NCBI RefSeq assembly: GCF_024979295.1 | Contig: NZ_JANLCJ010000005.1 | Location: forward strand, 62,001-126,000 | DNA length: 64,000 bases | Source: Herbiconiux daphne | GTDB lineage: Bacteria; Actinomycetota; Actinomycetes; Actinomycetales; Microbacteriaceae | Reading direction: 5' to 3' | Shown here: piece by piece, positions 12,771 through 29,301 of the stretch | How the letters are laid out: every line of letters begins with the position of its first letter | Position numbering within the stretch: position 1 is the stretch's first letter | Notes under the pieces: generated by a model | The model's input: the letters and a program-made list of their open reading frames with translations, nothing else | Database searches by the model: none | What the model was told of the DNA's origin: nothing | Made by a program: the position numbers and the translations under genes

Positions 12771-13910
12771 CTAGAGGTCGGCGTGCAGCTGCCAGACCTT
12801 GTCGGCGGAGTCGCGCCACGAGAAGGCGCGCGCCCGGTCGAGGCCCGAGATCGAGAGGCGGTTGCGCAGGGCGGCATCCGTCGTCACGGTGTGGATGGCA
12901 TCCGCCAGCTGGCCCGGGAACTCCGAGGGCGTCGTGCGCTCCACCACGAACGTCGAGCCCGCCGCCACCTCGAGCAGCGCCGGCACATCGGCGTGGATGA
13001 CGGGGGTGCCGAAGTTGAAGGCCTCGATCAGCGGCAGGCCGAAGCCCTCGGCCTGGCTCGGGTAGACGAACACGGTCGCCCGCTCCAGCGTGAGCGCGAG
13101 GTCGGAGTCGCTCAGAAAGCCGAGCACCCGGATGCGCGCGGGGTCGACGCCGGCGGCCGCCGCGACCGACGCCACGTCGACCTCACCCCAGCCCTCGGGC
13201 CCCGCGATCACGAGCGGCAGGTCGTCGGTCGCGGGCTCGGCCAGGGCCTCGATGAGCGCGGCGAGGCCCTTGCGGGGCTCGAGGGTGCCCACGGCGAGGA
13301 TGTAGCGCTCCGGCAGCCCGAGCGCGAGCGCGCGTTCTGCGGGGTCGAGCGGCAGCCGCAGCTCGTCGCTGACGGCGCCGCCGATCACGCGGATGCGGTC
13401 GCCGAAGTTGAAGTACTGCGACAGCTCCTGGGCGACGGCGTGGGTCGGCACCACGATCGCGTCGGCGAACTTGGCCGCGCGCTTGGCCATGGCCTTGTGC
13501 CAGGTGACGCCGCGCGGGGTGAGGGTCTCCGGATGCGTCCACGGCACCACGTCGTGAATGGTGACGGCCGTCTGCGTGCCGAGCTCTTCGCGGCGGTCGT
13601 GCCGCCGCATCGGGGCGAGCAGGCTGGTGGCGTGCACCATGCCGCCGCCGGAGGAGCCGATGATGCCGTGCTGCCAGGCGGCCGAGAGCTCGCGCCGCGG
13701 CAACGAGGCGCGGTGCAGGTCGGCGAGGCCGGGCAGGCGCTCACGCACCGACGCGACCGTCTCGGGCGGCACCGCCGAGATGATGCCCTCGACGTCGCAG
13801 TCACGCGGCGCGGTGGCGATGAGCTGCTTGGTGAGCTCGAGGGTGTAACGACCGATGCCGCCGGGAACGGGGGCGACCAGCTGGTCGACGATCACCCGCA
13901 GCGTGGCCAT
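12771..13910 (-). CDS. Glycosyltransferase family 4
   Basis: A 379-residue GT-B enzyme. The N-half has the glycine loop PGGIGRYTLEL. The C-half has YILAVGTLEPRKG, V-I-A-G-P-E-G-W-G, R-V-L-G-F-L-S-D and the donor-binding motif PSQAEGFGLPLIEA (EX7E). Such enzymes use nucleotide sugars in the cytoplasm to extend lipid-linked glycans with retention of configuration. Its start overlaps the rmlD stop (TAATG, one base shared), so it is the last gene of an rmlB-rmlD-GT4 operon and may be a rhamnosyltransferase, though donor specificity cannot be read. A long hairpin ends the unit. Confidence 0.88.
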   Translation of the reverse strand: MATLRVIVDQLVAPVPGGIGRYTLELTKQLIATAPRDCDVEGIISAVPPETVASVRERLPGLADLHRASLPRRELSAAWQHGIIGSSGGGMVHATSLLAPMRRHDRREELGTQTAVTIHDVVPWTHPETLTPRGVTWHKAMAKRAAKFADAIVVPTHAVAQELSQYFNFGDRIRVIGGAVSDELRLPLDPAERALALGLPERYILAVGTLEPRKGLAALIEALAEPATDDLPLVIAGPEGWGEVDVASVAAAAGVDPARIRVLGFLSDSDLALTLERATVFVYPSQAEGFGLPLIEAFNFGTPVIHADVPALLEVAAGSTFVVERTTPSEFPGQLADAIHTVTTDAALRNRLSISGLDRARAFSWRDSADKVWQLHADL

Positions 13911-14761
13911 TATTCTCCAAAAACTCCCGAGGAGACTGCGTCGTGTAAAGCAGCCCGCCAGTCACGCATGGGCTCTAATCCTGCTCGGGACCACGCGTCG
14001 TGCCCGAGCACGGAGTACACGGGACGCGGGGCAGGACGAACAAACTGCGAACTGTCTGTGGGCTTGACTTTATCAGGGTCGAGTCCCGCTTCCTGAAAGG
14101 TTGCCTGGGCGAAATCGAACCAGGAGCCCTGCCCGGAATTGGTGCCGTGATAGATGCCGGCCGGGGCATCCGAGTCGACCAGCTGCACCAGTTGGCGGGC
14201 GAGATCGGCCGTCCAGGTGGGCTGCCCGACCTGGTCGTGCACCACCGTCACGGTGTCGCGCTCGCGCCCGAGGCGCAGCATGGTGGCCGGGAAGTTGGCC
14301 CCGTTGCGGCCGTAGAGCCAGGCCGTGCGCACGACGTAACCGCCGGCCGGGTTGAGCCGCAGCACGGCCTCCTCGCCGTCGGCCTTGGTGCGGCCGTAGG
14401 CGTTAAGCGGGTCGCGCGGCTCGTCTTCGGGGTAGGGCGAGGTGGCCGAGCCCTGAAAGACGTAGTCGGTCGAGATCTGCACGAGCTTGGCGTCGTTCGC
14501 GGCCGTCGCCGCGGCGAGCGTCGCCGGGCCGATCGCGTTCACCGCGTGGGCGGTCGCTTCGTCGGTCTCGGCGGCATCCACCGCGGTGTAGGCGGCGCAG
14601 TTGAACACGACGTCGACGCCGGCGAGAGCGGATGCCACGGCCGAGGCATCGGTGATGTCGAGTTCTGCGCGCGAGAGCGCCACCACGTCGCGCCCGTCGA
14701 GGGCCTCGACGAGGTCGTGGCCGAGCATGCCGGCGGCGCCGGTGATGAGGTAGCGGGTCAT
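13910..14761 (-). CDS. rmlD: dTDP-4-dehydrorhamnose reductase
   Basis: A 283-residue short-chain dehydrogenase that performs the last step of dTDP-L-rhamnose synthesis. Landmarks are YLITGAAGMLGHDL for NAD(P) binding, F-N-C-A-A-Y-T-A-V-D-x-A-E, I-S-T-D-Y-V-F-x-G and YGRTK with the catalytic Tyr/Lys. The ATG at 14761 is chosen because the family starts at this point; it follows the rmlB stop by 19 bases. The partner genes rmlC and rmlA lie 13 kb away on the other strand. Confidence 0.93.
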   Translation of the reverse strand: MTRYLITGAAGMLGHDLVEALDGRDVVALSRAELDITDASAVASALAGVDVVFNCAAYTAVDAAETDEATAHAVNAIGPATLAAATAANDAKLVQISTDYVFQGSATSPYPEDEPRDPLNAYGRTKADGEEAVLRLNPAGGYVVRTAWLYGRNGANFPATMLRLGRERDTVTVVHDQVGQPTWTADLARQLVQLVDSDAPAGIYHGTNSGQGSWFDFAQATFQEAGLDPDKVKPTDSSQFVRPAPRPVYSVLGHDAWSRAGLEPMRDWRAALHDAVSSGVFGE

Positions 14762-14780
14762 GACGATCTCAGCCCGCGGA

Positions 14781-15767
14781 TCAGACGAGCGCGGCGCGGG
14801 CCTTGAGAGGCTCCCACCACGGGCGGTTGTCGCGGTACCACTGCACCACGTCGGCGAGGCCCTGCTCGAACGGCACGAGCGGCTCGTAGCCGAGCTCGGC
14901 CGTGATCTTCGAGATGTCGACCGAGTAGCGCAGGTCGTGGCCGAGGCGGTCGGCGACGCGGTCGACGTACGACCAGTCCTTGCCCGTGGCATCCAGCAGC
15001 AGCTGCGTGAGCTCCTTGTTGGTCAGCTCGGTGCCTCCGCCGATGTTGTAGATCTCGCCGGCGCGGCCCTTGGTGAGCACCAGGGCGATGCCGCGGGTGT
15101 GGTCGTCGACGTGCAGCCAGTCGCGGATGTTGTTGCCCTCGCCGTAGAGCGGCACGTGCTTGTCGTCGATGAGGTTCGTGACGAACAGCGGGATGACCTT
15201 CTCGGGGAAGTGGTAGGGCCCGTAGTTGTTCGAGCAACGCGTGATCGAGATGTTCATGCCGTGGGTGCGGTGGTAGCTGCGGGCGAGCAGGTCGCTGCCG
15301 GCCTTCGAGGCCGAGTAGGGCGAGTTCGGCTCGAGCGGGCGGTCTTCGGCCCACGAGCCCTCGGCGATCGAGCCGTAGACCTCGTCGGTCGACACGTGCA
15401 CGAAGCGGGGCAGGTTGTTGCGCAGCGCCGCGTCGAGCAGCTGCTGGGTGCCGAGCACGTTGGTCTCGACGAAGATCGAGGCGTCGCGCACCGAGCGGTC
15501 GACGTGCGACTCGGCGGCGAAATGCACCACGGCGTCGAGGCCCGGGAAGAGGTCGTCGAGCAGCTGGCCGTTGCGGATGTCGCCGTGCACGAAGGTGAGG
15601 CGCGGGTTGTCTTTGACCGGAAGCAGGTTGTCGAGGTTGCCGGAGTAGGTCAGCGCGTCGAGCACGACCACCTCAGCGCCTTCGAGGCCGGGGTAGGCGT
15701 CTTCGAGAGTGCGTCGAACGAAGTTCGAGCCGATGAATCCGGCGCCGCCGGTCACAAGAATCTTCAT
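14781..15767 (-). CDS. rmlB: dTDP-glucose 4,6-dehydratase
   Basis: A 328-residue enzyme making dTDP-4-keto-6-deoxyglucose, the branch point for rhamnose and amino-deoxy sugars. It has VTGGAGFIGSNF, FAAESHVDRS, STDEVYG, YSASKAGSDLL and NNYGPYHFPEK, all classic RmlB motifs. The start ATG at 15767 has GAGGAG twelve bases upstream and a TACAAT -10 box further up. It is the first gene of the operon rmlB-rmlD-GT4. Its product would also feed the WecE-like transaminase at 21136-22269. Confidence 0.95.
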   Translation of the reverse strand: MKILVTGGAGFIGSNFVRRTLEDAYPGLEGAEVVVLDALTYSGNLDNLLPVKDNPRLTFVHGDIRNGQLLDDLFPGLDAVVHFAAESHVDRSVRDASIFVETNVLGTQQLLDAALRNNLPRFVHVSTDEVYGSIAEGSWAEDRPLEPNSPYSASKAGSDLLARSYHRTHGMNISITRCSNNYGPYHFPEKVIPLFVTNLIDDKHVPLYGEGNNIRDWLHVDDHTRGIALVLTKGRAGEIYNIGGGTELTNKELTQLLLDATGKDWSYVDRVADRLGHDLRYSVDISKITAELGYEPLVPFEQGLADVVQWYRDNRPWWEPLKARAALV

Positions 15768-15803
15768 GGTGGGGGATGTCTCCTCGCATCTATGTCGCCC
15801 TCG

Positions 15804-15809
15804 ATTGTA
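15804..15809 (-). promoter_or_regulatory. -10 box of the rmlB operon
   Basis: TACAAT on the minus strand in the 71-base gap upstream of rmlB gives a leader of about 30 bases containing GAGGAG. No clear -35 box is seen. Confidence 0.45.
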
Positions 15810-15838
15810 GCGGGAGGCCCCTGTGCGCCTCGCCGGGC

Positions 15839-16676: not shown

Positions 16677-16682
16677 GCAAAC

Positions 16683-16688
16683 ACTATA
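16683..16688 (-). promoter_or_regulatory. -10 box of the XRE/nucleotidyltransferase pair
   Basis: TATAGT on the minus strand ends six bases before the ATG at 16676, predicting a leaderless message. Confidence 0.55.
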
Positions 16689-16694
16689 CCAGAA

Positions 16695-16708
16695 CTGCTA
16701 TATAGCAG
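16695..16708. promoter_or_regulatory. Palindromic operator candidate
   Basis: CTGCTATATAGCAG is a perfect 14-base palindrome. It lies in the -35 to -10 spacer region of the XRE gene's promoter, where a bound dimeric regulator would block RNA polymerase. Confidence 0.6.
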
Positions 16709-16754
16709 GACGGAGATGCGGGGTGTCGTGAGGCCGCACCCAGCCACCAGCCCC

Positions 16755-16760
16755 TAGAGT
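16755..16760 (+). promoter_or_regulatory. -10 box of the gtrA operon
   Basis: TAGAGT ends six bases before the GTG start at 16767. Confidence 0.5.
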
Positions 16761-16766
16761 GGGCCC

Positions 16767-17297
16767 GTGACACAGCCGGACCAGGACGGCGCCGCCCGCC
16801 CCGGCCTCATCCTCCGCCTCATCAAAGATCAGAGAGTCGCGTTTCTGCTCGTCGGCGCCACCAACACCGGCGTCGGCTTTCTCTTCTTCATCGCCTTCGA
16901 CCTCACCGTCGGCAACTGGCTCGACGACGCCGTCAACGAGACCATCGGCTCGCTCGCCACGCTGGCGTGCGCCCACGTGCTCGGCGTGCTCTTCGCCTTC
17001 GTGATGTACCGCCGGTTCGTGTTCCGGGTCACCGGTCACGTCTGGCGCGACCTGGCGCGATTCGAGAGCGTCTACCTGGTGGCGATCGTCATCAACGCGA
17101 TCATCCTGCCGATCCTGGTGGGGTTCGGCTGGAACCGCATCCTCGCCCAGTTCTCGATCCTCATCATCACCACGCTCATCAGCTGGTTCGGGCACAAGGG
17201 CTTCTCGTTCCGCCGCGAGGCCGAAGCCGCCACCGAGGTCGAGCCCGGCCGACCCGGCGACACCGGCGACACCACAGGATCGGGGGCCGGCCGCTGA
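16767..17297 (+). CDS. GtrA-family membrane protein
   Basis: A 176-residue protein with four hydrophobic segments (about 25-48, 66-88, 97-118 and 122-142), the GtrA/DPMS architecture. Landmarks are FLLVGATNTGVGF near the start and the Y-R-R-F-V-F-R segment after the second helix. GtrA proteins are thought to flip undecaprenyl-phosphate-linked monosaccharides so that a membrane transferase can use them outside the cell. GTG start, leaderless layout. It is the first gene of a tight run with a GT2, a GT-C-like protein and a GtrB/ArnC-like GT2 (overlap TGATG with the next gene). Confidence 0.85.
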   Translation: MTQPDQDGAARPGLILRLIKDQRVAFLLVGATNTGVGFLFFIAFDLTVGNWLDDAVNETIGSLATLACAHVLGVLFAFVMYRRFVFRVTGHVWRDLARFESVYLVAIVINAIILPILVGFGWNRILAQFSILIITTLISWFGHKGFSFRREAEAATEVEPGRPGDTGDTTGSGAGR

Positions 17298-18133
17298 TGC
17301 CCAAGCTCTCCGTGGTCATCCCCGCGTTCAACAACGCCGACTTCATCGTCGACACCGTGCGCTCGGTGCTCGACCAGCGCTACGGCGACTTCGAGCTCAT
17401 CGTCGCCGACCACTCGTCGGCCGACGACACCCGAGCGCTGCTCGAGCGCTTCGCCGGCGACCCCCGCGTGACCCTGCTCGACACTCCGGCGGGCGGCGGC
17501 GCCGAGGCGAACTGGCGGCGGGTGACGGATGCCGCCACCGGTGACTACCTGAAACTCCTGCCCGGCGACGACCTGCTCTACCCCGGCGCCCTCGAGCTGC
17601 ACGCCCACGCCCTCGACGCGCATCCGTCGGTCGTGCTCGTCTCGAGCCCACGCGACATCCTCGACGCCCGCGGCCGCGTCACCATCCGCAAACGCGGACT
17701 CCAGGGCGTGCCGCGCCGGGTGCAGCCCGGGGTCGAGGTCATCCGGCAGACCGTGCGCCGGGGCACGAACGTCTTCGGCGAACCCGGATGCGTCACCATG
17801 CGCCGCTCGGTGCTCGAGCAGGCCGGCGGCTGGGACGCTCGGTTCCCCTACCTCATCGACCAGACGAGCTACTCCAAGGTGCTGCTGCGCGGCGACTACC
17901 TGCCGGTCGATCGCGCGCTCGCGGGCTTCCGGGTGAACCAGGGGCAGTGGAGCGTGGCGCTGGTGAACGACCAGGCCGAGCAGGCCAAGGCCTACAACCG
18001 GTGGTGCCGCGAGCAGGCGCCCGACACCATCAGCGCCCGCGACGTCTGGATCGGCAACCGCCGCGCCGAAGTCATGGCCCTCGCGCGCCGCGCCTACTAC
18101 ACCGTCACCGCGAGCAGGATGCGAGCCGCATGA
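17297..18133 (+). CDS. Glycosyltransferase family 2
   Basis: A 278-residue inverting GT-A enzyme. It opens with KLSVVIPAFNNADFI, has IVADHSSADDT and a metal-binding L-P-G-D-D-L stretch, then G-E-P-G near the acceptor region. No membrane helices. It begins at an ATG that overlaps the gtrA stop and ends in an ATGA overlap with the next gene. It probably transfers a sugar to the growing lipid-linked polymer or side chain; donor unknown. Confidence 0.85.
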   Translation: MPKLSVVIPAFNNADFIVDTVRSVLDQRYGDFELIVADHSSADDTRALLERFAGDPRVTLLDTPAGGGAEANWRRVTDAATGDYLKLLPGDDLLYPGALELHAHALDAHPSVVLVSSPRDILDARGRVTIRKRGLQGVPRRVQPGVEVIRQTVRRGTNVFGEPGCVTMRRSVLEQAGGWDARFPYLIDQTSYSKVLLRGDYLPVDRALAGFRVNQGQWSVALVNDQAEQAKAYNRWCREQAPDTISARDVWIGNRRAEVMALARRAYYTVTASRMRAA

Positions 18134-19998
18134 ATACCCTCGACCGGGCCGCCGCCCGCCTCACCACCTGGCGCTGGTTCCCCTATGCGCTCGCCGCGCT
18201 GCTCTCGCTCGTCGCCGTCTGGTTCGGCCTCGACCTGTGGCACCTCGACTGGAGGGTGCCGCTCTACTACACGGGCGACGCCCTCGCGGTGGGCTCGCAC
18301 TTCAAGACCATCATCGAGACCGGATGGTTCACCCACCAGCCCGACCTCGGCGCTCCCTACGGGCAGTTCTACAACGACTATCCGCAGGCCGACAACCTGC
18401 ATTTCATCGCCGCGAGCGTGCTGCGGGTGTTCACGAGCGACTTCGGTGCCCTGATGAACATCTCTTTCGTGATCGGCTTCCCGCTCGCGGCCGTCACGGC
18501 GGTGTGGTTCCTGCGGCTGGTCGGCGTGAGCCGCACGCTCTCGGTCGCGCTCGGCGTCGCGTTCTCGATCGCGCCCTACCACTTCATCAAGGGCGAGGGC
18601 CACCTCTTCCTCGCCGCCTACTTCGTGGTGCCGCTCGCGCTCGGCATCCTCTACCTGGTGGCGACGGGGCAGCCCGTGTGGTCGCGGCGCATCCTCAGCC
18701 GGCGCAATCTCGCGACGGTCGGCATCCTGGTGCTGCTCGGCACGGCCTCGAGCTACTACTCGGTGTTCGTGGCCCTGGTGCTCGCGGTGGCGGGGCTCGC
18801 GAAGCTCTGGCAGACGCACGCCTGGCGGCGGTTCTTCGGCGCGGCCGCGGCCGGGCTGGTGATCGCCTTCACGATGTTCCTCAACCTGCTGCCCGACCTG
18901 ATCTACCGCCTGGCCAACGGGGCCAACGAGGCGGTGCTCGTGCGCAGCCCACCCGAGGCCGAGCTCTACTCGTTCAAGATCGCGTCGCTGCTGCTGCCTG
19001 TTCCCGGGCACCGCTTCGCCCCATTCGCGAACCTGCGGCAGCTCTACGACACCTACTACCCGCTGCCCTCCGAGGCGCCGGCGCTCGGGCTCATCGCCGC
19101 GGCGGGATTCGTGGCGCTGATCGTGTTCGCCGTGTACTTCTTGCTCACCGCCGGCAAGACGCGGTGGCGGGCGCCGCGCAGCTACGTGCGCACCCTCTCG
19201 GTGCTGTCGGGGCTGACGCTCGTCGCCTTCCTGTTCGGCACCGTCGGGGGGCTCTCGACGTTGCTCTCGTTCGTCGACTTCCCGATCCGGTCGTGGAACC
19301 GCATCGCCATCCTGATCGCGATGCTCGCGCTCGCCGCCGTGGGGCTGCTGCTCGACCGCGCGGTGCGGTCGGTGATGCGCCGCGCCGAGCGGCGTGCCGC
19401 GGCGCGAGATGCCTCCGCGCTGGACGCCGCGAGCGGCTACGGCGGCATCGGCGCTTCCGCGGCATCCGCCGCCCGCCCCCGTCGTCGCTGGCTCGTCGCC
19501 GTGCCGCTCGCCGTGCTGCTCATGGTGCTCGCCGTCTGGGACCAGATTCCCCCCATCGACCACGCCGCCCGGGCGGCGACCGTGGCGAGCTTCGACTCCG
19601 ACGAGGCGTTCACGAAGCAGGTCGAGCAGACGGTGGCGAGCGGATGCCTGCTCTACCAGTTGCCCTACATCGCCTTCCCCGAGTCGCCACCCGTCAACGG
19701 CGCCACCGATGCCGACGAGCTGCGGCCGTTCCTGCACTCCACCGATCTGCGCTGGTCGGCGGGCGGCATCAAGGGCCGGGCGCCGGTCGACGAGGTCGGC
19801 GCGCTGGCCTCGCTGCCTGTGCCGGCGCTCGTGATGGCGCTGAAGGGCATCGACGCGTGCGGCATCGTGGTCGACCGCGCCGCCTATGCCGACGGCGGCG
19901 CCGCGGTGGTCGACCAGCTCGAATCGGTGACCGGCGACGCCGCGTCGTCGTTCGACTCACCCGACGGCCGCTTCAGCTTCATCCGCACCGTGCCGTGA
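18130..19998 (+). CDS. Polytopic membrane protein, GT-C-like
   Basis: A 622-residue protein with about ten to twelve hydrophobic segments up to residue 490, and a soluble extracytoplasmic C-terminus (about 490-622). The first loop holds Y-Y-T-G-D-A and further acidic residues, as in GT-C glycosyltransferases that use polyprenyl-phosphate sugars. No named family motif is certain. The position between gtrA and a GtrB/ArnC-like GT2 supports a role as the outside sugar transferase of a three-part decoration system. The ATG at 18130 overlaps the previous stop. Confidence 0.65.
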   Translation: MNTLDRAAARLTTWRWFPYALAALLSLVAVWFGLDLWHLDWRVPLYYTGDALAVGSHFKTIIETGWFTHQPDLGAPYGQFYNDYPQADNLHFIAASVLRVFTSDFGALMNISFVIGFPLAAVTAVWFLRLVGVSRTLSVALGVAFSIAPYHFIKGEGHLFLAAYFVVPLALGILYLVATGQPVWSRRILSRRNLATVGILVLLGTASSYYSVFVALVLAVAGLAKLWQTHAWRRFFGAAAAGLVIAFTMFLNLLPDLIYRLANGANEAVLVRSPPEAELYSFKIASLLLPVPGHRFAPFANLRQLYDTYYPLPSEAPALGLIAAAGFVALIVFAVYFLLTAGKTRWRAPRSYVRTLSVLSGLTLVAFLFGTVGGLSTLLSFVDFPIRSWNRIAILIAMLALAAVGLLLDRAVRSVMRRAERRAAARDASALDAASGYGGIGASAASAARPRRRWLVAVPLAVLLMVLAVWDQIPPIDHAARAATVASFDSDEAFTKQVEQTVASGCLLYQLPYIAFPESPPVNGATDADELRPFLHSTDLRWSAGGIKGRAPVDEVGALASLPVPALVMALKGIDACGIVVDRAAYADGGAAVVDQLESVTGDAASSFDSPDGRFSFIRTVP

Positions 19999-20012
19999 TA
20001 GCTTCTGGTCTC

Positions 20013-21146
20013 GTGGACAATGTCGACGCGACCGCTTCCACGGTGTACTCCATCTCGGTCGTGGTGCCCGTGTATCAGGGCGAACGCACCCTCGCGGCGG
20101 TCGTGGCCGAGCTCGAGCCCTACACCCGCGGGGCGCGCACGCCCGATGGCGTCGCCTACCGCGTCTCGGAAGTGCTGCTCGTGCACGACAACGGCCCCGA
20201 CCACTCCGACATCGTGATGCGCACGCTCGAGGTGCAGTATCCGTTCGTCAGCATCATCTGGCTGAGCCGCAACTTCGGTCAGCACGCCGCCACCATCGCG
20301 GGAATGGCGGCCTCGAAGGGCCGCTGGATCCTGACGATGGACGAAGACGGCCAGCACGACCCCGCCTCGATCGGCGCCTTCCTCGACACCGCCATCCGCG
20401 AGCGGGCGGGCGTGGTCTACGCCCGCTTCACCAACGAGCGCCCGCACGGGTTGTTCCGGGCGGCCGCGTCGCGGTCGTCGAAGCGGATGCTCGGGGCCGC
20501 GTTCCGCCTGCCCGACGCGAGCCAGTTCCAGAGCTACCGTCTCGTGCGCGGCGACGTGGGCCGCAAACTCGCGGGGTTCGCGGCGACCGGCGTCTACCTC
20601 GACGTCGCGCTGAGCTGGGTGACGAACCGGGTGGCCACGTCGCCGACCCGCCTGCGCACCGCCGACGGACGGGTGTCGGGCTATTCGCTGCCGGCCCTCT
20701 TCGCCTACTTCTGGCGCATGGTGCTCACGAGCGGCACCACGGGCCTGCGTTTCGTCAGCGTGCTCGGTGGCATCATCGCGGTGATCGGCGTGATCATCGC
20801 GATCTACATCATCGCGTCGCCGAACGTCGGGCAAGAGCCCGAGACGGCGGGCTGGGCGTCGCTCATCGTCGTCATCCTGCTCTGCTCGGGCGCCATCCTG
20901 GTGTCGCTCGGAGTGATCGCCGAATACATCGGGGTGTCGCTCAACGTGGCGATGGGGCGGCCCCTCTATCTGGTGGTCGACGACCCCGAGACGATCATGC
21001 CCGAAGACGAACCCGTCACGCCCGAGACCATGCGCTCGGCCGACACGGCCACCATCCCCTACCTCGACCCCGCTGAACCACAGGCAGTCCGGCCCGAACC
21101 GACCGTCGCTCCCCACGGAACGGAAAACCACCCCGGTGCCCGATGA
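20013..21146 (+). CDS. Polyprenyl-phosphate glycosyltransferase, GtrB/ArnC-like GT2
   Basis: About 377 residues. The GT-A domain (about 5-245) has SVVVPVYQGERTL, LSRNFGQHAATIAGM and the metal site MDEDGQHDP. Two membrane helices follow (about 250-275 and 290-315), the layout of GtrB, DPM1-like and ArnC enzymes that load a sugar onto undecaprenyl phosphate. Start choice: GTG 20013 follows a TAGCTT box by eight bases; GTG 19995 overlaps the previous stop (GTGA) and is an alternative. It overlaps the sugar transaminase gene by 11 bases, suggesting that the loaded sugar is the amino sugar made by that enzyme (inference). Confidence 0.85.
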   Translation: MDNVDATASTVYSISVVVPVYQGERTLAAVVAELEPYTRGARTPDGVAYRVSEVLLVHDNGPDHSDIVMRTLEVQYPFVSIIWLSRNFGQHAATIAGMAASKGRWILTMDEDGQHDPASIGAFLDTAIRERAGVVYARFTNERPHGLFRAAASRSSKRMLGAAFRLPDASQFQSYRLVRGDVGRKLAGFAATGVYLDVALSWVTNRVATSPTRLRTADGRVSGYSLPALFAYFWRMVLTSGTTGLRFVSVLGGIIAVIGVIIAIYIIASPNVGQEPETAGWASLIVVILLCSGAILVSLGVIAEYIGVSLNVAMGRPLYLVVDDPETIMPEDEPVTPETMRSADTATIPYLDPAEPQAVRPEPTVAPHGTENHPGAR

Positions 21147-22269
21147 GATCGTCTTCAGCCGCCCGCTGCGAACGCCCGACGAACTGCCGAACCTCGACAC
21201 GGTTCTGCGGTCGGACCACTCGCACGGCGACGGCCCCTTCACCGCGACGGCGACCGCCCGGCTGAAGGTGGTGACCGGGGCGTCCGAGGCACTGCTCACC
21301 ACGTCGTGCACGCACGCCCTCGACATGGCGTCGCTGCTGCTCGATCTCGGCCCCGGCGACGAGGTCGTGCTGCCGAGCTTCACGTTCCCCTCCGCGGCCA
21401 CGGCGATCGTGCTGCGGGGAGCGACCCCGGTGTTCGTCGACATCGACTTCTCGACCGGCAACATCGACCCCGAGCAGGTCGCCGAGGCGCTGACCCCGCA
21501 CACCAAGGCGGTGACCGTGATGCACTACGGCGGGGTGCCGGTCGACCTCGACGCCGTCGTCGGCATCGCCGAGCGCGCCGGCATCGCGCTGATCGAAGAC
21601 AACGCCCACGGCCTGGGCGGCCGCGACGGGGAGCGCCGGCTCGGCACCGTCGGCGCCTTCGGCACGCAGAGCTTCCACGACACCAAGAACGTGCACTGCG
21701 GCGAGGGCGGCGCCCTGCTCATCAACGACGAGCGCTACGTCGAGCGCGCCGAGATCGTGCGCGAGAAGGGCACCAACCGCGCCCGCTTCCTGCGCGGTGC
21801 GGTCGACAAGTACACCTGGCAGGATGTCGGCTCGAGCTACCTGCTCAGCGAGCTCAACGCCGCCGTGCTCGACTCCCAGCTCGCCTCGTTCGACACCATC
21901 CAGGCCGCGCGCAACCGGGTCTGGAACGCCTATGCCGACGGTCTCGGCGACTGGGCCGACGACACCGAGGTGCGCCTGATGTCCGACGACCCGAACCTCG
22001 AGCACACCGCGCACCTCTTCTATGCGCTCATGCCCGACCACGAGGGGCAGTCGGGGCTCATCCAGCACCTCCGCGGTCTCGGCATCCGGGCGGCCTTCCA
22101 TTACGTGCCGCTCGACTCCTCGCCCGCCGGCCGGCGTTTCGGCCGCACGGCGCATCCGCTCGACCGCAGCGAAGGGTTCTCGTCGCGCCTCGTGCGGCTG
22201 CCGCTCTGGGCCGGCATGACGGATGCGCAGGTCGAGCGCGTGATCGAGGGCGTGCGGTCGTACCGCTGA
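21136..22269 (+). CDS. dTDP-4-amino-4,6-dideoxyhexose transaminase (WecE/RffA-like)
   Basis: A 377-residue PLP enzyme of the DegT/DnrJ/EryC1/StrS family. It shows the WecE pattern LTTSCTHALDMASLLLDL, GDEVVLPSFTFPSAA, EDNAHGLG and SFHDTKNVHCGEGG, with Lys184 as the PLP lysine. WecE aminates dTDP-4-keto-6-deoxyglucose, the RmlB product, to dTDP-4-amino-4,6-dideoxygalactose. Exact stereochemistry here is not provable from sequence. It starts at GTG inside the end of the GT2 gene. No soluble N-acetyltransferase (WecD-like) is adjacent, so the amine may stay free or be modified by the membrane acyltransferase downstream. Confidence 0.88.
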   Translation: MPDEIVFSRPLRTPDELPNLDTVLRSDHSHGDGPFTATATARLKVVTGASEALLTTSCTHALDMASLLLDLGPGDEVVLPSFTFPSAATAIVLRGATPVFVDIDFSTGNIDPEQVAEALTPHTKAVTVMHYGGVPVDLDAVVGIAERAGIALIEDNAHGLGGRDGERRLGTVGAFGTQSFHDTKNVHCGEGGALLINDERYVERAEIVREKGTNRARFLRGAVDKYTWQDVGSSYLLSELNAAVLDSQLASFDTIQAARNRVWNAYADGLGDWADDTEVRLMSDDPNLEHTAHLFYALMPDHEGQSGLIQHLRGLGIRAAFHYVPLDSSPAGRRFGRTAHPLDRSEGFSSRLVRLPLWAGMTDAQVERVIEGVRSYR

Positions 22270-22342
22270 GGCGTGACAGCGGGGAGCGCGGGCTGCCCAG
22301 TGCCCGTGCGCGTGGCCGTGCCCCGGCCGACCTGACGACTGA

Positions 22343-22373
22343 TTAACATCGGTTAACCTCCGTCGGTTATGCT
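22343..22373 (+). promoter_or_regulatory. Promoter of the acyltransferase gene
   Basis: TTAACA (22343-22348) and TATGCT (22368-22373) form a -35/-10 pair with a 19-base spacer. The palindrome GGTTAACC lies between them (22351-22358). Transcription would start near 22380, which excludes the ATG at 22369. Confidence 0.5.
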
Positions 22374-22455
22374 GACGGCTTCACTACGACTGTCGAGCAG
22401 CGGCCCGGTGCCGCCCGCAGCGGCGGTCGCCGCCACCGCAGGGAGCCGCACCCGC

Positions 22456-23529
22456 ATGATCACCCGGCCCGCGCCCGATCCGCGCCGGCGACCGAACGCC
22501 TTCACGGCGCTCACGGTCGCGGGCGCGCTGCTCGTGGTGCTGCGGCATTCCGGCCCGATCTTCGGCGGCGACGCCGAGACGTCCTGGTTCCAGACGCTGC
22601 CGCCGCTCGGCATCTACGTTCTGCTCGCCGTGAGCGGATTCCTGCTGGTGCAAAGCTGGGAGCGCCGACCGAACCTCGCCGTCTATGCGGGGGCGAGAGT
22701 GGTGCGCATCTTCCCGCCGCTCGCGATCGTCGTGCTGCTCACGGTGTTCGTGCTCGGCCCGCTGACGACGACGCTCGACGGTGAGCTCTACTTCTCATCG
22801 CCCGAGACCTGGGCCTACCTCGGCAACATCGCGCTCAACCCGCATTACTTCTTGCCCGGGGTGTTCGCCGACAACCACTATCCCTTCGCCGTGAACGGCT
22901 CGCTCTGGTCGCTGCCGGCCCAGTTCGCGTGCTACTTCTTCGTGCCGGTGGTGGCCGTGCTGCCCGCGCGCCCGGCCCGTGGCGCCCTGTGGATCGTGCT
23001 CGGCATCGTCGCCGCGGTGGCGTCGCAGCTGCCCGCGCTCGCGACCTTCTCGGTGTGGGGCAGTGCTCCGCAAGACGTGCTGCGGGTGTGGCCGGCATTC
23101 TTCTTCGCGGCGGCCCTGCGCGAGCTGGTCGGCGCACCCCGCGTGCGGTGGGGCGTCGCCGCCGCCGCGCTGCTCGCCGTCGTGCAGCTCTGGCTGCCGG
23201 CGCAGCTGCAGCTCGCCGACTGGGCACTGGTGCCGGTGGCGGTCGCAGCGATCGGCTCCGCACCGATCCCGGTCGTGTCGGCGGCCGGGCGCTGGGGCAA
23301 TCCGACCTATGGCGCCTTCCTCACCGGCTTCCCCATCCAGCAGACCCTCGCCGAGACGTTCGGCACCGATCACGCGGCGGCTCTGCTCGTCGCCTCGCTG
23401 GTGCTCGCCCCCACCGCGGGCTTCGTGCTCGCGCGCACCGTCGAGCAGCCACTCACAAACGCTTTTCGGCGCGCGACCAGGGTGCGTACAGGGCCCGTCA
23501 AGGCGCTGCCGGAACCTCTCGTGGCATGA
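22456..23529 (+). CDS. Acyltransferase family 3 membrane protein
   Basis: About 357 residues with ten or so hydrophobic segments. The opening R-P-N-A-F-T-A-L-T-V-A-G-A-L-L-V-V-L-R-H has the family's R-x10-H arrangement, followed by V-S-G-F-L-L and R-I-F-P-P. Such proteins O-acylate (often acetylate) glycans at the membrane. The ATG at 22456 is chosen because AGGGAG lies about ten bases upstream and the -10 box at 22368 would remove the earlier ATG at 22369. It may decorate the wall polysaccharide or the amino sugar made next door. Confidence 0.85.
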   Translation: MITRPAPDPRRRPNAFTALTVAGALLVVLRHSGPIFGGDAETSWFQTLPPLGIYVLLAVSGFLLVQSWERRPNLAVYAGARVVRIFPPLAIVVLLTVFVLGPLTTTLDGELYFSSPETWAYLGNIALNPHYFLPGVFADNHYPFAVNGSLWSLPAQFACYFFVPVVAVLPARPARGALWIVLGIVAAVASQLPALATFSVWGSAPQDVLRVWPAFFFAAALRELVGAPRVRWGVAAAALLAVVQLWLPAQLQLADWALVPVAVAAIGSAPIPVVSAAGRWGNPTYGAFLTGFPIQQTLAETFGTDHAAALLVASLVLAPTAGFVLARTVEQPLTNAFRRATRVRTGPVKALPEPLVA

Positions 23530-23564
23530 GACGACCGGTCTCAAACAAGGAAATGTGAATTCGC

Positions 23565-23570
23565 TATGCT
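23565..23570 (+). promoter_or_regulatory. -10 box upstream of the 1370-residue fusion gene
   Basis: TATGCT, followed by GATG, matches the -10 and downstream bases of the acyltransferase promoter (TATGCTGACG). The leader of about 63 bases has AAAGGG eight bases before the ATG. Confidence 0.4.
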
Positions 23571-23639
23571 GATGCCGCCTGACACGGTGGAGACCCTGGT
23601 TCCCGTTGTTCGACCACACCTGATCAAAGGGATTGCACG

Positions 23640-26600
23640 ATGACCACCGACCTCACACCCGCGCGCAGAATCGCCGCGCACGCCGACGCCTCCGGTGTTC
23701 GGCCGCTCGGCCCGCACGAAGACGACAGCGCCCCCGACCAGCACGCCGACGATGCTCTGCTGCCGATCGTGCGGAGCGCCCGAGACCTGAGCGCGGCAAG
23801 CACCGAGCTGCTCGAAGCCGCCATCGCTGCCGGGTCGCTGCACCGCCGTCACGTCGACCCGTCCCGGGCCAACGTGCTGCGGGCCCTGGCGCTGCCCCGT
23901 GAAGCCCGGGTGCTCGAGATCGGCGCCGGGTACGGCGCCATCACGCGCTACCTCGGTGAGACGGTGGCGGTGGTCGACGCGCTCGAGACGGAGCACGCCC
24001 GCGCGGCGGTCGCCCGCGAGCGCACCCGCGACCTCGCGAACGTCGAGGTGTTCGCCGGCGTTCTCGCCGATCTGCCGGCCGAGCCGGCCTACGACGTGAT
24101 CGTCATGGTCGACGTGCTGGAACACGTCGGCCACGGTTCGGCCGATCGCGCGCCCTACGTCGCCTTCCTGCGCGAAGCGGCCTCGCGCCTCGCGACAGGC
24201 GGCCGCATCGTGCTCGCCATCGAGAACAAGCTCGGCGTGAAATACCTCGCCGGAGCACCCGACGATCACACCGGGCGGCTGTTCGACGGCCTCGAAGACT
24301 ACCCTCGCGGCACCGGCGCCCGCTCGTTCAGCCGCGCCGAGCTCCTCGTGCTGCTCGAGCAGGCCGGGCTCACCTCGCGCACCCTGGGCGCCTTCCCCGA
24401 TCACACGTCGGCTCGTGTGGTGCTCGATTTCGACGACGTTCCGGATGCCGCCACGGAGCTGCTCCATCGCATCCCGTCGTTCCCGAGCCCCGACACCGCC
24501 GGGCGCCGGGTGGCGCTCGTCGACGAAGGGCTGCTCTGGCGCAGCCTCGTCGACGCGGGGGTGGGGCGCGACTTCGCCAACTCGTTCGTGGTGATCGCGA
24601 CGGCCGAGGCCGCCGATGACGCGCTCTGGCCGTCGGCCACGCTCGCGCGCTTCTTCTCGCGCGACCGCACCCGCGACGCCTCGGCCTCGACCACCGTGTG
24701 GCGCGAGGGCGACACCGTGCGGTTCTCGCGATCGTTCGCGGCCGACCCCTCGCCCCTCATCTCGACCGAGATGGCGGAGTCGGAGTTCGTGGCGGGCCGC
24801 GCCTTCGACGAGGTCTTCGTGGCCGCCGACGACGACGAGCGCCGCCGCCTGCTGACGGCCTGGAGGCAGCTCGTCGACGCGTCGGTCGACGCGGAGGGAG
24901 TGCCGATCGACGCCATTCCGCAGAACGTGCGGGTGGAGGCATCCGGAGCGCTGCGGCTGATCGACATCGAGTTCCGGTCGCCCGACGTCCGCGTCGAGTT
25001 CGTGATCGAACGCGGGGTGCTGTGGCTCGGCACCCAGCTCGCGTCGACGACCGCCCCCGAGGTGTGGCCGCAGTACGGCCGCATCCGGGAGCTCGTGGTG
25101 GGTCTCGGAGCACTGGCCGGTCTCGACCCGTCGGGGGCCTGGGTGAGCGCCGCCGTCGAGGCGGAGGCCCGGTTCCAGGCGGAGGTCACCACCCGGTTCG
25201 CCGGGCCCGACGCCGTGGGGCTCTGGCAGAGCGAGCTCGATCGCATGCTCGACTCCGACCTCATCGCCGGGCCGCTCGGACTGCGAGTGAACGACGTGCT
25301 CAACAGCGCGGAGGGGCGCCTGGTCGACCTCGCCGCCGAGCTCGCCGAGACCGAGCAGCAGCTGGCGACCGTGACCGGCGAGCTCACGGCCGAACGCGCG
25401 GCCGCGGAGGCCGCCGTGCTGCGGCTGGAATCCGAGTTGCTCGCCACGGCGCAGCGGGTGACCGAGCTCGAGATCCGGCACCAGGACACCGAGTTCCAGC
25501 TGCGCGCGGCCGAGAACGAGCTCGGCACGGCCCGCAGCGAGGGTGCCCGCCTGCTGCACCAGAGCCAGGACGAGACGTTCGTCGCCCGCAGCGAGCTGCA
25601 GGCCCTGCAGTCGTCTCGCGCGTTCCGGGCCCTCGCGTTCTCGCGCCGCCGGCTCGACCGGCTGGCGCCGTGGGGCACGCACCGCCGCGGTCTCTACGAG
25701 CGCAGCCTCCGGGCGGTCGGTGTCGCGGCACGCACCGTGCGTCGCGCGCCGGCGGCGGTGCCCGCGCCGCCCCGGTTCGCCATGCCCACGGCCGACGTGC
25801 CGCTCGTCAGCATCGTCATCCCCATCCACGGCAAGTGGGATTTCACCGAGCGCTGCCTGCACTCGCTCATCCGCTGCCACAACGGTGAGTCGTTCGAGGT
25901 GATCGTGGTCGACGACGCCTCGCCCGACGATTCGTTCGCCCGCCTCGAGGAGTTCGAGGGCGTTCGCGTCGTCGCTCTGGCGCAGAACGCCGGTTTCACC
26001 CGGGCGGCCAATGCCGGCATCCGTGCGGCCCGCGGCCGTCACGTGGTCATGCTGAACAACGACGCCGAGGTGACCCACGGCTGGCTCGACGCCCTGCTCG
26101 ACGCGGCCGAGCTGCCGGGAGCCGGCATCGTGGGCGCGAAACTCGTCTACCCCGACGGGCGGTTGCAGGAGGCGGGCGGCATCATCTTCCGCGACGCGAG
26201 CGGCTGGAACTACGGCCGCTACGGCGACCCGAACGCGCCGGAATACAACTTCCGTCGCGAGGTCGACTACTGCTCGGGCGCCGCCATCCTGATCACCCGC
26301 GCCTTGCTCGACGTCGTGCCCGGCTTCGACGAGCGCTACGCGCCGGCCTACTACGAAGACACCGACCTCGCCTTCGAGGCCCGGCGCCACGGGCTCACGG
26401 TGGTCTACGAGCCGCGCTCCACGGTCATCCATCACGAGGGAATCTCGCACGGCACCGACGAGGCCTCGGGCACCAAGAAATACCAGGCGATCAACCGCGA
26501 GAAGTTCCTCGAGAAATGGGCGGTCGAACTCGAGGGCCAGTTCGAGAACGATCCGTCGGTCGCCACGGTGGCCTCGATGCGGCGATCGGGGCGCCGCACG

Positions 26601-27752
26601 GTGTTCATCGTCGACCACATGGTGCCGCGCTGGCGGGAGGACTCCGGGTCGCTGCGCATGCAACGCCTCATGACCACGATGATCGAACTCGGCTACGACG
26701 TCGTGTTCCTTCCCGACAACCGCGACCAGGCGCAGCCCTACACCGCCGAGCTGCAGCGGCTCGGCGTGTTGGTCTGGTACGGCTGGGGAGACATCTGGGC
26801 GCACCTCGAGGCGATCCGCGACGTGGTGGCGCTGGTCGTGCTCTCGCGGGCGACGGTCGCCTCGACCTACATCCGTCACGTGCGCGAGGTGCTGCCCGAT
26901 GTGCCGCTGGCGTTCGACACGGTCGACCTCCACTTCCTGCGCGAGCAGCGGCGCCTCGATCTCGCCGCCGGCGGCAACGCGAAGTCGGTGCACGCCATGC
27001 GCGAGCTCGAGCTGGCGATCGTGCGGGCCTCCGATCTGACGCTCGTCGTCTCGGAGTTCGAGCGCAGCGTGCTGCAGCAGCTGGAGCCGCAGAAGCCGGT
27101 CTACGTGCTCTCGAACTCGCACGACAGCGTTCCGGTGTCCGAAGCGCTGCCGCGCACCGAGATCACCTTCGTGGGCAGCTTTCAGCACAACCCCAACGCC
27201 GACGCGATCCGCTGGTTCGTGCGCGAGGTGTTCCCGCTCGTCAGACAGCAGGTGCCCTCGGCCCACCTCTCGGTCGTGGGGCGCTTTCCGCCCAGCGATC
27301 TGCTCGACGTGCCGCATCCGGGCATCGACTACCTCGGCTGGGTCGAGGATGTCGCTCCCGTTCACGCCCGCAGCATCGTGTCAATCGCGCCACTGCGCTA
27401 CGGCGCCGGTGTGAAGGGCAAGGTCGGCGACGCCTGGGCGCACGGGGTGCCGGTGGTGATGACCGCGCTCGCGGCGGAGGGCATGCAGGTCGACGACGGC
27501 CGAACCGGCATCGTCGCCGACACCGCCGAGGAGTTCGCGGCCGCCGTAGTGCGGCTGCACCGCGATCGCGAGCTGTGGCAGAGCATCTCCGACCAGTCGC
27601 GGGCCCACGTCGACCGCGTGTTCGGCCGCGAGCGGCTCGTGCAGGCGCTCGCGGAGATCCTCGAGTTCCAGGTCGATGACGCCGACGCTGCTGCGCCGGG
27701 CTCGCCGGGCGCCGACGGGCCCGTGGAGTGGGAAGAGCGGCCGGTTGGTTAG
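23640..27752 (+). CDS. Methyltransferase - coiled coil - GT2 - GT4 fusion protein
   Basis: A 1370-residue cytoplasmic protein with at least three enzyme domains. Residues about 75-290 form a class I SAM methyltransferase (VLEIGAGYGAITRYLG, then VIVMVDVLEHVGHG). A region of unclear fold follows (about 290-550), then a Glu/Ala/Leu-rich coiled coil (about 560-670). A GT2 domain (about 718-955) starts LVSIVIPIHGKWDF and contains VVDDASPDDS, MLNNDAEVTHGWLDALLDA and YYEDTDLAFEARRHG. A GT-B/GT4 domain (about 983-1340) has FVGSFQHNPNADAIRWF and I-A-P-L-R-Y-G-A-G-V-K-G-K. It could elongate, branch and methyl-cap one polymer in a single machine. RBS AAAGGG; the stop overlaps the -10 box of rmlC. Confidence 0.88.
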   Translation: MTTDLTPARRIAAHADASGVRPLGPHEDDSAPDQHADDALLPIVRSARDLSAASTELLEAAIAAGSLHRRHVDPSRANVLRALALPREARVLEIGAGYGAITRYLGETVAVVDALETEHARAAVARERTRDLANVEVFAGVLADLPAEPAYDVIVMVDVLEHVGHGSADRAPYVAFLREAASRLATGGRIVLAIENKLGVKYLAGAPDDHTGRLFDGLEDYPRGTGARSFSRAELLVLLEQAGLTSRTLGAFPDHTSARVVLDFDDVPDAATELLHRIPSFPSPDTAGRRVALVDEGLLWRSLVDAGVGRDFANSFVVIATAEAADDALWPSATLARFFSRDRTRDASASTTVWREGDTVRFSRSFAADPSPLISTEMAESEFVAGRAFDEVFVAADDDERRRLLTAWRQLVDASVDAEGVPIDAIPQNVRVEASGALRLIDIEFRSPDVRVEFVIERGVLWLGTQLASTTAPEVWPQYGRIRELVVGLGALAGLDPSGAWVSAAVEAEARFQAEVTTRFAGPDAVGLWQSELDRMLDSDLIAGPLGLRVNDVLNSAEGRLVDLAAELAETEQQLATVTGELTAERAAAEAAVLRLESELLATAQRVTELEIRHQDTEFQLRAAENELGTARSEGARLLHQSQDETFVARSELQALQSSRAFRALAFSRRRLDRLAPWGTHRRGLYERSLRAVGVAARTVRRAPAAVPAPPRFAMPTADVPLVSIVIPIHGKWDFTERCLHSLIRCHNGESFEVIVVDDASPDDSFARLEEFEGVRVVALAQNAGFTRAANAGIRAARGRHVVMLNNDAEVTHGWLDALLDAAELPGAGIVGAKLVYPDGRLQEAGGIIFRDASGWNYGRYGDPNAPEYNFRREVDYCSGAAILITRALLDVVPGFDERYAPAYYEDTDLAFEARRHGLTVVYEPRSTVIHHEGISHGTDEASGTKKYQAINREKFLEKWAVELEGQFENDPSVATVASMRRSGRRTVFIVDHMVPRWREDSGSLRMQRLMTTMIELGYDVVFLPDNRDQAQPYTAELQRLGVLVWYGWGDIWAHLEAIRDVVALVVLSRATVASTYIRHVREVLPDVPLAFDTVDLHFLREQRRLDLAAGGNAKSVHAMRELELAIVRASDLTLVVSEFERSVLQQLEPQKPVYVLSNSHDSVPVSEALPRTEITFVGSFQHNPNADAIRWFVREVFPLVRQQVPSAHLSVVGRFPPSDLLDVPHPGIDYLGWVEDVAPVHARSIVSIAPLRYGAGVKGKVGDAWAHGVPVVMTALAAEGMQVDDGRTGIVADTAEEFAAAVVRLHRDRELWQSISDQSRAHVDRVFGRERLVQALAEILEFQVDDADAAAPGSPGADGPVEWEERPVG

Positions 27753-27755: not shown

Positions 27756-27761
27756 CGGTGC

Positions 27762-28373
27762 GTGCAATTCCGCGAACTGAGTATTCCTGACAGCTACGAG
27801 ATCACGCCGAAGCAGTTCGGCGACGATCGGGGCGTGTTCCTCGAGTGGTACCGCTTCGACAAGCTCGAAGCCGAGATCGGCCACTCGCTCGACCTCGCTC
27901 AGGCGAACACGTCGGTGTCGAAGAAGGGTGTCGTGCGCGGCATCCACTTCGCCGACATCCCGCCGTCGCAGGCGAAGTACGTCACGGCCACCCACGGTGC
28001 GGTGCTCGACTTCGTCGTCGACATCCGGGTGGGCTCGCCCACCTATGGCCAGTGGGACTCGGTGCTGCTCGACGACGTCGACCGCCGGGGCATCTATCTC
28101 GCCGAGGGCCTCGGGCACGCGTTCGTGGCGCTGACGGATGACGCCACCGTCTCCTACCTCGTCACTTCGACGTTCGCGGCCGAACGCGAGCACGGCATCA
28201 ATCCGCTCGACCCCGAGATCGAGCTGCGGTTCCCCGACGAGGCCGGCAACCTGCTGCTGTCGCCGAAGGACACGGATGCCCCGAGCCTCGCCGAGGCGGC
28301 GGCATCCGGTCTGCTGCCCACGTGGGACGAGGCGAAGGCGTTCTACGCGTCGCTCAACGAGGGAGGCCGCTGA
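27762..28373 (+). CDS. rmlC: dTDP-4-dehydrorhamnose 3,5-epimerase
   Basis: A 203-residue cupin enzyme, third step of dTDP-L-rhamnose synthesis. It has [27 protein letters not shown] with the catalytic His, a [12 protein letters not shown] strand and [12 protein letters not shown] start with leaderless layout. The stop overlaps the rmlA start (TGATG), so the two are made together. Confidence 0.94.
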
Positions 28374-29242
28374 TGCGCGGAATCATTCTGGCGGGCGGGT
28401 CGGGCACGCGGTTGTGGCCGATCACGAAGGGCATCTCGAAGCAGCTGATGCCGATCTACGACAAGCCCATGGTCTACTACCCCCTGTCGACGCTGATGAT
28501 GGCGGGCATCAACGAGGTGCTCATCATCACCACCCCGGAGTACAACGAGCAGTTCAAGGCGCTGCTCGGCGACGGCAGCGAGCTCGGCATGCGCATCGAA
28601 TATGCGGTGCAGCCCTCGCCCGACGGCCTGGCGCAGGCGTTCATCATCGGTGAGGAGTTCATCGGCGACGAGAGCGTGGCCCTGGTGCTCGGCGACAACA
28701 TCTTCCACGGTGTGGGGCTCGGTTCGAGCCTGCGCAGCAACGACGAGATCGACGGCGCCCGCATCTTCGCCTATCACGTGGCGAACCCGCGGGCGTATGG
28801 CGTGGTGGAGTTCGACGACGACTTCACGGCGGTGTCGATCGAAGAGAAGCCGGTTCAGCCGAAGTCGAACTACGCGGTGCCCGGCCTCTATTTCTACGAC
28901 AACTCGGTGGTCGAGATCGCGAAGTCGATCGAGCCCTCGGCGCGCGGCGAGCTCGAGATCTCGACCGTGAACGAGCGCTACCTCGAGCGCGGTGACCTGC
29001 ACGTGCAGGTGCTCGACCGCGGCACCGCCTGGCTCGACACCGGAACGTTCGAGTCTATGATGCAGGCCTCGGAGTACGTGCGGGTGATCGAAGACCGGCA
29101 GGGCTACAAGATCGGCTGCATCGAGGAGATCGCGTGGCGCGCGGGCTGGATCGACACCGCGCAGCTCGCGAAACTCGCGGCACCGCTGGTGAAGAGCGGT
29201 TACGGCGCCTACCTCGAGACCCTCATCGCCGCCGACGACTGA
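28373..29242 (+). CDS. rmlA: Glucose-1-phosphate thymidylyltransferase
   Basis: A 289-residue nucleotidyltransferase that makes dTDP-glucose from glucose-1-phosphate and dTTP, the entry to the rhamnose pathway. The signature [16 protein letters not shown] opens the protein; later come [28 protein letters not shown] and WLDTGT. A strong GGGAGG precedes the overlapping ATG. It completes the Rml set with rmlB/rmlD at 13.9-15.8 kb. Confidence 0.96.
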
Positions 29243-29295: not shown

Positions 29296-29301
29296 GTGAG
29301 C

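Follow-up and report, generated by a model that had tools for sequence, protein, structure and literature searches.

What is a sugar transaminase doing in a polysaccharide locus of a Gram-positive bacterium, packed together with a flippase, two glycosyltransferases and a large membrane protein? The question is raised by a cassette at positions 16767–22269 of a 64,000-nucleotide stretch of the Herbiconiux daphne genome (positions 62,001 to 126,000 of contig NZ_JANLCJ010000005.1), which we refer to as the window. The cassette encodes, in this order, a GtrA-family flippase, a family 2 glycosyltransferase (GT2a), a 622-residue membrane protein, a second family 2 glycosyltransferase (GT2) resembling ArnC and GtrB, and a WecE-type transaminase; from gtrA to wecE, neighbouring genes overlap by 1, 4 and 11 nt at three junctions and are separated by 14 nt at the other. 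An earlier note on this DNA had read these genes as a decoration module, and gene calls and family matches located every gene that it had named. Our analysis bears that reading out: a GtrA flippase, a GT-A enzyme of the ArnC/GtrB/PgfS type, predicted to load a sugar onto polyprenyl phosphate, and a membrane protein of predicted GT-C fold stand beside the transaminase in a polysaccharide locus. We consider it likely that the cassette is a three-component extracytoplasmic glycosylation system that carries its own gene for a sugar of the dTDP-4-amino-4,6-dideoxygalactose (dTDP-Fuc4N) type, and that this donor is exchangeable.

The arrangement is shared by relatives. A single scan of a genome collection gave 65 related loci (numbered here with the prefix L), and the order GtrA, GT2a, GT-C, ArnC-like, WecE recurs in the 11 closest (L104–L113 and L135), most of which come from Herbiconiux, the others being from Glaciibacter superstes and from two records that carry different names. 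In all of these WecE-type loci but L105, whose contig begins inside GT2a, GtrA can be seen (10 of 11). The order of the window is also found in loci L084, L086 and L088 (genomes G288, G026 and G205). Conservation of this kind exceeds chance. Among 299 genomes of the family, WecE scored above its cut-off in all eight that have a close GT-C (at least 69% identity), at a distance of 1.0–1.2 kb, in none of the 26 with a distant GT-C and in 30 of the 265 without a GT-C match. Since the eight genomes make up one lineage (seven of the window's genus and one of another), the Fisher test of this pairing is descriptive only. Among the matches listed, all seven same-genus genomes, the window's own included, have the GT-C. 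In H. moechotypicola (L110/L090) the ArnC-like gene is present as two open reading frames of 168 and 154 aa, reflecting either a natural frameshift or a sequencing error. Two other Microbacteriaceae hold an independent set of WecE, a GNAT protein, an ArnC-like GT2, GtrA and unassigned large proteins (L064, 3962–10633; L065, 2801–9234).

Is the transaminase a fixed part of the cassette? The earlier note had asked for a survey of gene order across the Microbacteriaceae, and the outcome is split: close relatives do keep the five genes together, but sister genera, which retain the transfer genes, have a gene of the short-chain dehydrogenase/reductase (SDR) family in the place of WecE. In 17 of the 65 loci (L114–L116, L118, L120–L130, L134 and L148, from Subtercola, Cryobacterium, Frigoribacterium, Salinibacterium, Cellulomonas and others) the SDR gene lies directly behind the ArnC-like gene, and the fetched stretch has no DegT-family gene. 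The distance from GT-C to the ArnC-like gene is about 7 kb in L122 and L130 and about 2 kb in L127 and L134. All six SDR proteins tested matched PF01370, and none reached an NCBIfam cut-off, the matches being to broad epimerase/dehydratase models at scores far below theirs; judged by family, the product may be a reduced or epimerised sugar.

The sugar-making gene appears to be swapped at the same rml locus even within Herbiconiux. On L121, a Herbiconiux contig, the proteins encoded by rmlB, rmlD, the next GT4 gene and gtrA are 98%, 88%, 85% and 78% identical to those of the window, respectively. Identity is 58% for GT2a, 40% for GT-C and 52% for the ArnC-like protein, behind which an SDR is encoded. 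DNA matching rmlC–rmlA and DNA matching gtrA lie 37 nt apart on L121 (blastn); in the window the interval between them is about 10.5 kb and holds the rest of the cassette. The SDR cassette of L121 lies beyond rmlA, and both gene types are found on this one contig, which belongs to a metagenome-assembled genome (MAG) and could be chimeric. The GT-C proteins differ in length as well, with 744–818 aa in 15 of the 17 SDR-type loci and 593–675 aa in the WecE type (n = 12), all with mechanically assigned starts. In a structure model of the SDR-type GT-C of L120, residues from about 632 to 745 form an extra C-terminal, β-rich part without a counterpart in the window protein; going by the model, the shorter form may reflect another acceptor.

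We then come to the membrane protein itself. It had no Pfam or NCBIfam match at E ≤ 0.001, and PDB searches with the single sequence and with a 45-row profile returned no meaningful match, and naming it by sequence was dropped. An AF2 model built from a 45-row alignment of relatives (pLDDT 91.6, pTM 0.92) had as its four best Foldseek matches AglB (E = 1.3e-6), ArnT (5f15; E = 5.2e-6, TMq 0.53), yeast oligosaccharyltransferase and the C-mannosyltransferase DPY19. A second structure comparison aligned 378–491 residues at root-mean-square deviations (rmsd) of 4.6–5.7 and gave Z scores of 18.1 for an oligosaccharyltransferase subunit, 17.6 for PMT, 17.1 for AglB, 16.7 for PglB, 16.4 for AftA, 15.0 for AftD and 13.1 for ArnT (rmsd 4.7 over 458 residues), where scores within 1 count as tied and values under about 13 can be common among helical proteins. 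Other GT-C families score higher than ArnT, and the protein has no ArnT family match. Because several GT-C families match at least as well as ArnT, we assign the protein to a predicted GT-C fold and not to ArnT specifically. A predicted transferase fold agrees with the label GT-C-like that the protein had been given before; a fold of another kind, which the earlier note had named as a contrary outcome, did not emerge. Position 50, in the loop after a long helix (residues 17–33) of the model, is Asp in 43 of the 45 alignment rows and Glu in L136 and L152; it is a plausible catalytic acid. Glu 267 was considered as a mark of amine recognition, being acidic only in the WecE type if one row may differ. 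It was ruled out: L111 has Ala at this position, the two L158 proteins encoded next to a WecE have Pro, and the RfbH-type L133 and L167 have Glu.

For most of its length the ArnC-like GT2 resembles ArnC, which is its match in both NCBIfam and PDB, as well as PgfS (NCBIfam) and sll0501 (PDB); its DED motif at residues 110–112 is invariant in 12 rows. Does this make the cassette an Arn pathway? The two systems have in common a DegT-family transaminase for a 4-amino sugar, loading by an ArnC-like enzyme and transfer by a GT-C protein. The differences are that a dTDP- and not a UDP-sugar is expected, that a GtrA flippase is present, that no formylation gene is linked and that scores on Arn models are low: the best NCBIfam match of the ArnC-like protein, NF007986 (ArnC), reaches 96.3 bits against a cut-off of 529, and the transaminase has 191.8 bits on ArnB (NF008658, cut-off 631). 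The formyltransferase family PF00551 is represented in all eight cassette genomes by three to four genes each, none of them near the cassette. The likeness to Arn, which adds 4-amino-arabinose (Ara4N) to lipid A, had been drawn in the earlier note and does not extend to membership: the cassette is not the Arn pathway, and is partly Arn-like in its working.

As to the sugar, the transaminase scores 471 bits on the WecE equivalog NF008687, above the cut-off of 375, and lower on PseC (208 bits) and DesI (134 bits). Among solved structures it is closest to WecE chains (6blg and 4piw/4zah, 305–308 bits), with ArnB next at 163 bits. Lys 184, in the motif FHDTKN, aligns with FHETKN of the solved WecE chains and is presumably the lysine that binds pyridoxal phosphate. 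The narrower model for the enterobacterial common antigen (ECA) subfamily, TIGR02379, is not passed (395.2 bits against 434.85). The window enzyme thus shares an equivalog with ECA WecE and differs in failing the subfamily model, in having no linked WecD and in the predicted passage of its product through a polyprenyl monophosphate. By these family assignments the product is most likely dTDP-Fuc4N. RmlB, proposed before as the source of the precursor, does lie inside the window and passes TIGR01181. Since RmlA, RmlB, RmlC and RmlD are all encoded within the window, the pathway forks at the RmlB product, towards rhamnose on one side and the WecE sugar on the other; RmlD catalyses a later step of the competing rhamnose branch.

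From these identities, the fold, the gene order and the swap we infer the following route. RmlA and RmlB would produce dTDP-4-keto-6-deoxyglucose, which WecE would aminate, most likely to dTDP-Fuc4N. The ArnC/GtrB-like GT2 would load the sugar onto undecaprenyl (or another polyprenyl) phosphate, GtrA would carry the lipid-linked sugar to the outer leaflet, and the GT-C protein would transfer it to a wall polysaccharide. GT2a possibly serves the acceptor branch. The donor sugar would be the swappable part, made with WecE, with an SDR in sister genera, or with RfbH or another DegT protein beside distant GT-Cs. The window encodes proteins with RgpF and WbsX domains along with a Wzt-type ATPase, which suggests an ABC-exported, rhamnose-containing polymer, and a rhamnose-rich polymer of this kind is probably the acceptor. 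At 45265–48514, two adjacent RgpF-domain proteins, the second fused to WbsX, are encoded near the Wzt-type ATPase (39873–41081, − strand) in what is a probable ABC-exported rhamnan locus.

How does the cassette compare with known systems? In CsbB/GtcA/YfhO, GtlA/GtcA/GtlB and GtsA/GtsB/GtsC (PMC8035078), a GtrA flippase, a lipid-loading membrane GT-A and a GT-C likewise decorate a wall polymer from outside; the sugars named for them are galactose (Gal) and N-acetylglucosamine (GlcNAc), whereas the cassette has its own deoxy-amino-sugar enzyme and a GT-C without a family model. The same division of labour is described for GtrA/GtrB/Gtr seroconversion and for pentofuranose systems (PMC11127046), which differ in using glucose, galactose or pentofuranose donors, mostly on Gram-negative O antigen; there, changes of donor or GT-C alter the serotype, and one example acts on an ABC-exported polymer. 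The gsf cluster of Actinoplanes missouriensis (PMC13390465) is, like the cassette, a GtrA-dependent glycosylation set of an actinomycete, but its membrane transferase does not have a GT-C fold according to its authors, and the paper names no WecE. In the open-licence literature, judged mostly by titles and the opening lines of abstracts and with subscription journals largely outside it, we found no precedent for a Gram-positive three-component system that handles an amino sugar or a 3,6-dideoxyhexose. Within that literature both the kind of donor and the exchange of the sugar gene appear new, the kind of cassette itself being known.

The GT-C protein has relatives well beyond the 28 loci of WecE and SDR type. 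In ten of the other 37 loci RfbH, an enzyme of the 3,6-dideoxyhexose type, scores above its cut-off and lies no more than 4 kb from the GT-C; nine of the ten are distinct (Table), L138 having the same matches at the same coordinates as L137; they come from several phyla and an archaeon. CDP-glucose 4,6-dehydratase (TIGR02622) is above its cut-off in six of the nine RfbH genomes, below it in two and without a match at E ≤ 1e-60 in one, and all six passing matches lie inside the fetched loci, contig identity being judged from coordinates. In L158, from a Thermoleophilaceae MAG (4026–9286), a WecE of 530.6 bits, which clears the ECA subfamily model too (514.7 bits, cut-off 434.85), is directly followed by two tandem GT-Cs. 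In L136, L145, L152, L154 and L159 the GT-C is accompanied by other DegT proteins that score below cut-offs, and in L155 by a broken one. The remaining 20 loci, several of them short contigs, have none of these partners. In a quick tree of 45 GT-Cs the seven WecE-type rows form one group with a support of 100, and the five partner labels require 13 changes against a shuffled mean of 26.7; supports are by SH-aLRT alone, flags were raised for two long branches and for 19 rows with unusual composition, and L158 was left out. The assigned partners presumably share the precursor NDP-4-keto-6-deoxyglucose, and a sugar derived from it would be the factor common to the GT-C partners, which for the SDR is a guess. 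RfbH as a general partner of the GT-C was rejected: of 296 genomes of the phylum, 15 have RfbH and four the GT-C (E ≤ 1e-20; three candidates scored per genome, so that absences are soft), and only in G495 do the two occur together, at a distance of 210 bases; the remaining three genomes with the GT-C, one of which is the window's, are without RfbH. RfbH does not need this GT-C. A tentative generalization, which we would hold short of probable, is that the GT-C defines a family that is widespread and not yet described (Actinomycetota, Bacillota, Planctomycetota, Acidobacteriota, candidate phyla and a methanogen) that adds NDP-4-keto-6-deoxyglucose-derived sugars outside the cell. The last sugar enzyme would be exchanged among WecE, SDR, RfbH and other DegT proteins, even within Herbiconiux, in the manner of a serotype switch, and the Herbiconiux version would place unacylated, polyprenyl-phosphate-linked Fuc4N, with free amines, on a Gram-positive rhamnan.

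Would such a sugar give the wall a positive charge? The earlier note had proposed this as the outcome of an Arn-like route that leaves the amine free, a proposal that overlaps the glycosylation system favoured here and adds charge to it. WecD is above its cut-off in none of the eight cassette genomes; four have weak matches below it, all at a distance from the cassette. The GNAT protein found with WecE in L064 and L065 has no match in the eight genomes, and their formyltransferase-family genes likewise lie elsewhere. With no WecD above cut-off and no linked formyltransferase or GNAT, a free amine is plausible. Yet an N-acyltransferase that is unlinked or of another kind could still mask it, and membrane acyltransferases lie near some cassettes. 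Moreover, in the Arn route the amine is N-formylated ahead of transfer, and transfer with a free amine departs from that precedent. Because the SDR-family enzyme of the sister cassettes is not an aminotransferase, charge is not the general purpose of such cassettes. On balance we regard wall charge as a somewhat doubtful addition. The membrane acyltransferase gene downstream starts 99 nt past wecE (186 nt with a later start choice) and was considered as a further part of the module; it was rejected, since such a gene lies within 6 kb in four of the 11 WecE-type loci, varying in type and strand, and also in L084.

Several observations weigh against the cassette adding its own amino sugar from outside. 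The Fisher test contrasts one lineage with the rest and not many independent events, and the ArnC-like protein is below every NCBIfam cut-off. For Herbiconiux, PMC10011130 gives glucose as the sugar of two species and adds rhamnose and ribose to it in H. oxytropis, which has the cassette (L109); no amino-dideoxy sugar is named in the passages on this, although routine analysis of whole-cell hydrolysates could miss one. Others on this side point to a different use of the WecE sugar, in which a soluble transferase (GT2a or the fusion glycosyltransferase downstream) would build it into the polymer intracellularly; the ArnC/GtrA/GT-C set would then add a different, ordinary sugar, and the genes would merely lie side by side. 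GT2a, present in all 11 WecE-type loci, as is the ArnC-like gene, could be the user of the dTDP sugar. Of the 30 genomes that have WecE but not this GT-C, loci from 15 were fetched, and in 11 of these a WsaF-like transferase stands beside WecE (Pfam WsaF domains were found in three of three tested). The WecE-type locus L111 likewise carries a WsaF-like gene, some 6.5 kb past WecE, so WecE products are usable in another way. Against this, the position immediately after the ArnC-like gene is taken by WecE in one of two sister lineages and by the SDR gene in the other; L064 and L065 have a different ArnC-like protein and GtrA close to WecE and no GT2a-like gene among the open reading frames listed; and the distant GT-C recurs near RfbH in nine distinct loci and beside WecE in L158. 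Intracellular use by a soluble transferase therefore seems unlikely to us. It is less probable still that the cassette glycosylates a surface protein or glycolipid instead of a wall polysaccharide: the best GT-C matches include protein glycosyltransferases (oligosaccharyltransferases, AglB and PMT) and CWB2-repeat proteins are encoded downstream within the window, but GT-C folds match across acceptor types, so that this likeness says little, and the window also encodes RgpF and Wzt-type proteins and, the cassette aside, seven more glycosyltransferases.

With an extracytoplasmic Fuc4N-type cassette, three-component wall decoration would reach beyond common hexoses to amino- and dideoxyhexoses, and there would be a testable GT-C family for which no current model exists. 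The same locus with two sugar enzymes in one genus would be a natural experiment on the donor specificity of flippase and GT-C. If the amine is indeed free, the system would be a sugar-based counterpart of D-alanylation in setting the wall charge of Gram-positives. Herbiconiux is a soil and plant bacterium. The coordinates of the cassette and its neighbours are collected in the Table.

Table. Cassette, precursor genes and neighbouring features of the window, with the RfbH-type loci of distant GT-C relatives
Feature	Position or loci	Strand	Basis
RmlD, dTDP-4-dehydrorhamnose reductase	13910..14761	-	TIGR01214 296.7 bits, cut-off 224.05 (scored on longer reading 13910-14992)
RmlB, dTDP-glucose 4,6-dehydratase	14781..15767	-	TIGR01181 432.8 bits, cut-off 365.1
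GtrA-family flippase	16767..17297	+	PF04138 52.9 bits, cut-off 26.1
GT2a glycosyltransferase	17297..18133	+	PF00535 90.2 bits; in 11/11 WecE-type loci
Predicted GT-C-fold membrane glycosyltransferase, 622 aa	18130..19998	+	AF2 model, fold matches
ArnC/GtrB/PgfS-like GT2, predicted polyprenyl-phosphate-sugar synthase	20013..21146	+	PF00535 65.5 bits
WecE-type transaminase	21136..22269	+	PF01041; NF008687 471 bits, cut-off 375
Membrane acyltransferase 3, accessory	22369..23529	+	PF01757 40.6 bits, cut-off 31
Methyltransferase-GT2-GT4 fusion, probable polymer assembly gene	23640..27752	+	PF13489, PF00535, PF13692
RmlC	27762..28373	+	PF00908 186.7 bits; TIGR01221 153.2 bits, slightly below cut-off 155.75
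RmlA, glucose-1-phosphate thymidylyltransferase	28373..29242	+	TIGR01207 470.2 bits, cut-off 360.65 (scored on longer reading 28322-29242)
RfbH-type loci	L133, L137, L140, L142, L144, L151, L153, L162, L167		RfbH above cut-off

A scan of 15600–29400 for promoters and terminators was uninformative: a single promoter-like site came up, which lies outside the cassette (shuffle mean 0.5), and the two terminator-like sites are on the opposite strand (shuffle mean 3.7). Between rmlB and gtrA lies a small nucleotidyltransferase-like gene (15839–16363, − strand; PF10706 22.7 bits, cut-off 21), which has a 68% identical relative at the same place in L087 and is not among the gene calls of six other close loci. 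Directly downstream of rmlA, at 29296–33375, two proteins have three CW_binding_2 stretches each, one of them with a CAP domain, and relatives of these proteins are encoded just beyond rmlA in L105, L108, L110 and L135. Finally, a second probable three-component set occupies 51355–63998 of the window. It consists of a GtrA protein (62146–62673, + strand; PF04138 80.3 bits) and, on the − strand, a GT2 (60040–60795), an SDR (58988–60013), a PMT_2 protein (62643–63998) and five large proteins (51355–58983) that have no Pfam match and look by eye like membrane proteins of the GT-C kind.

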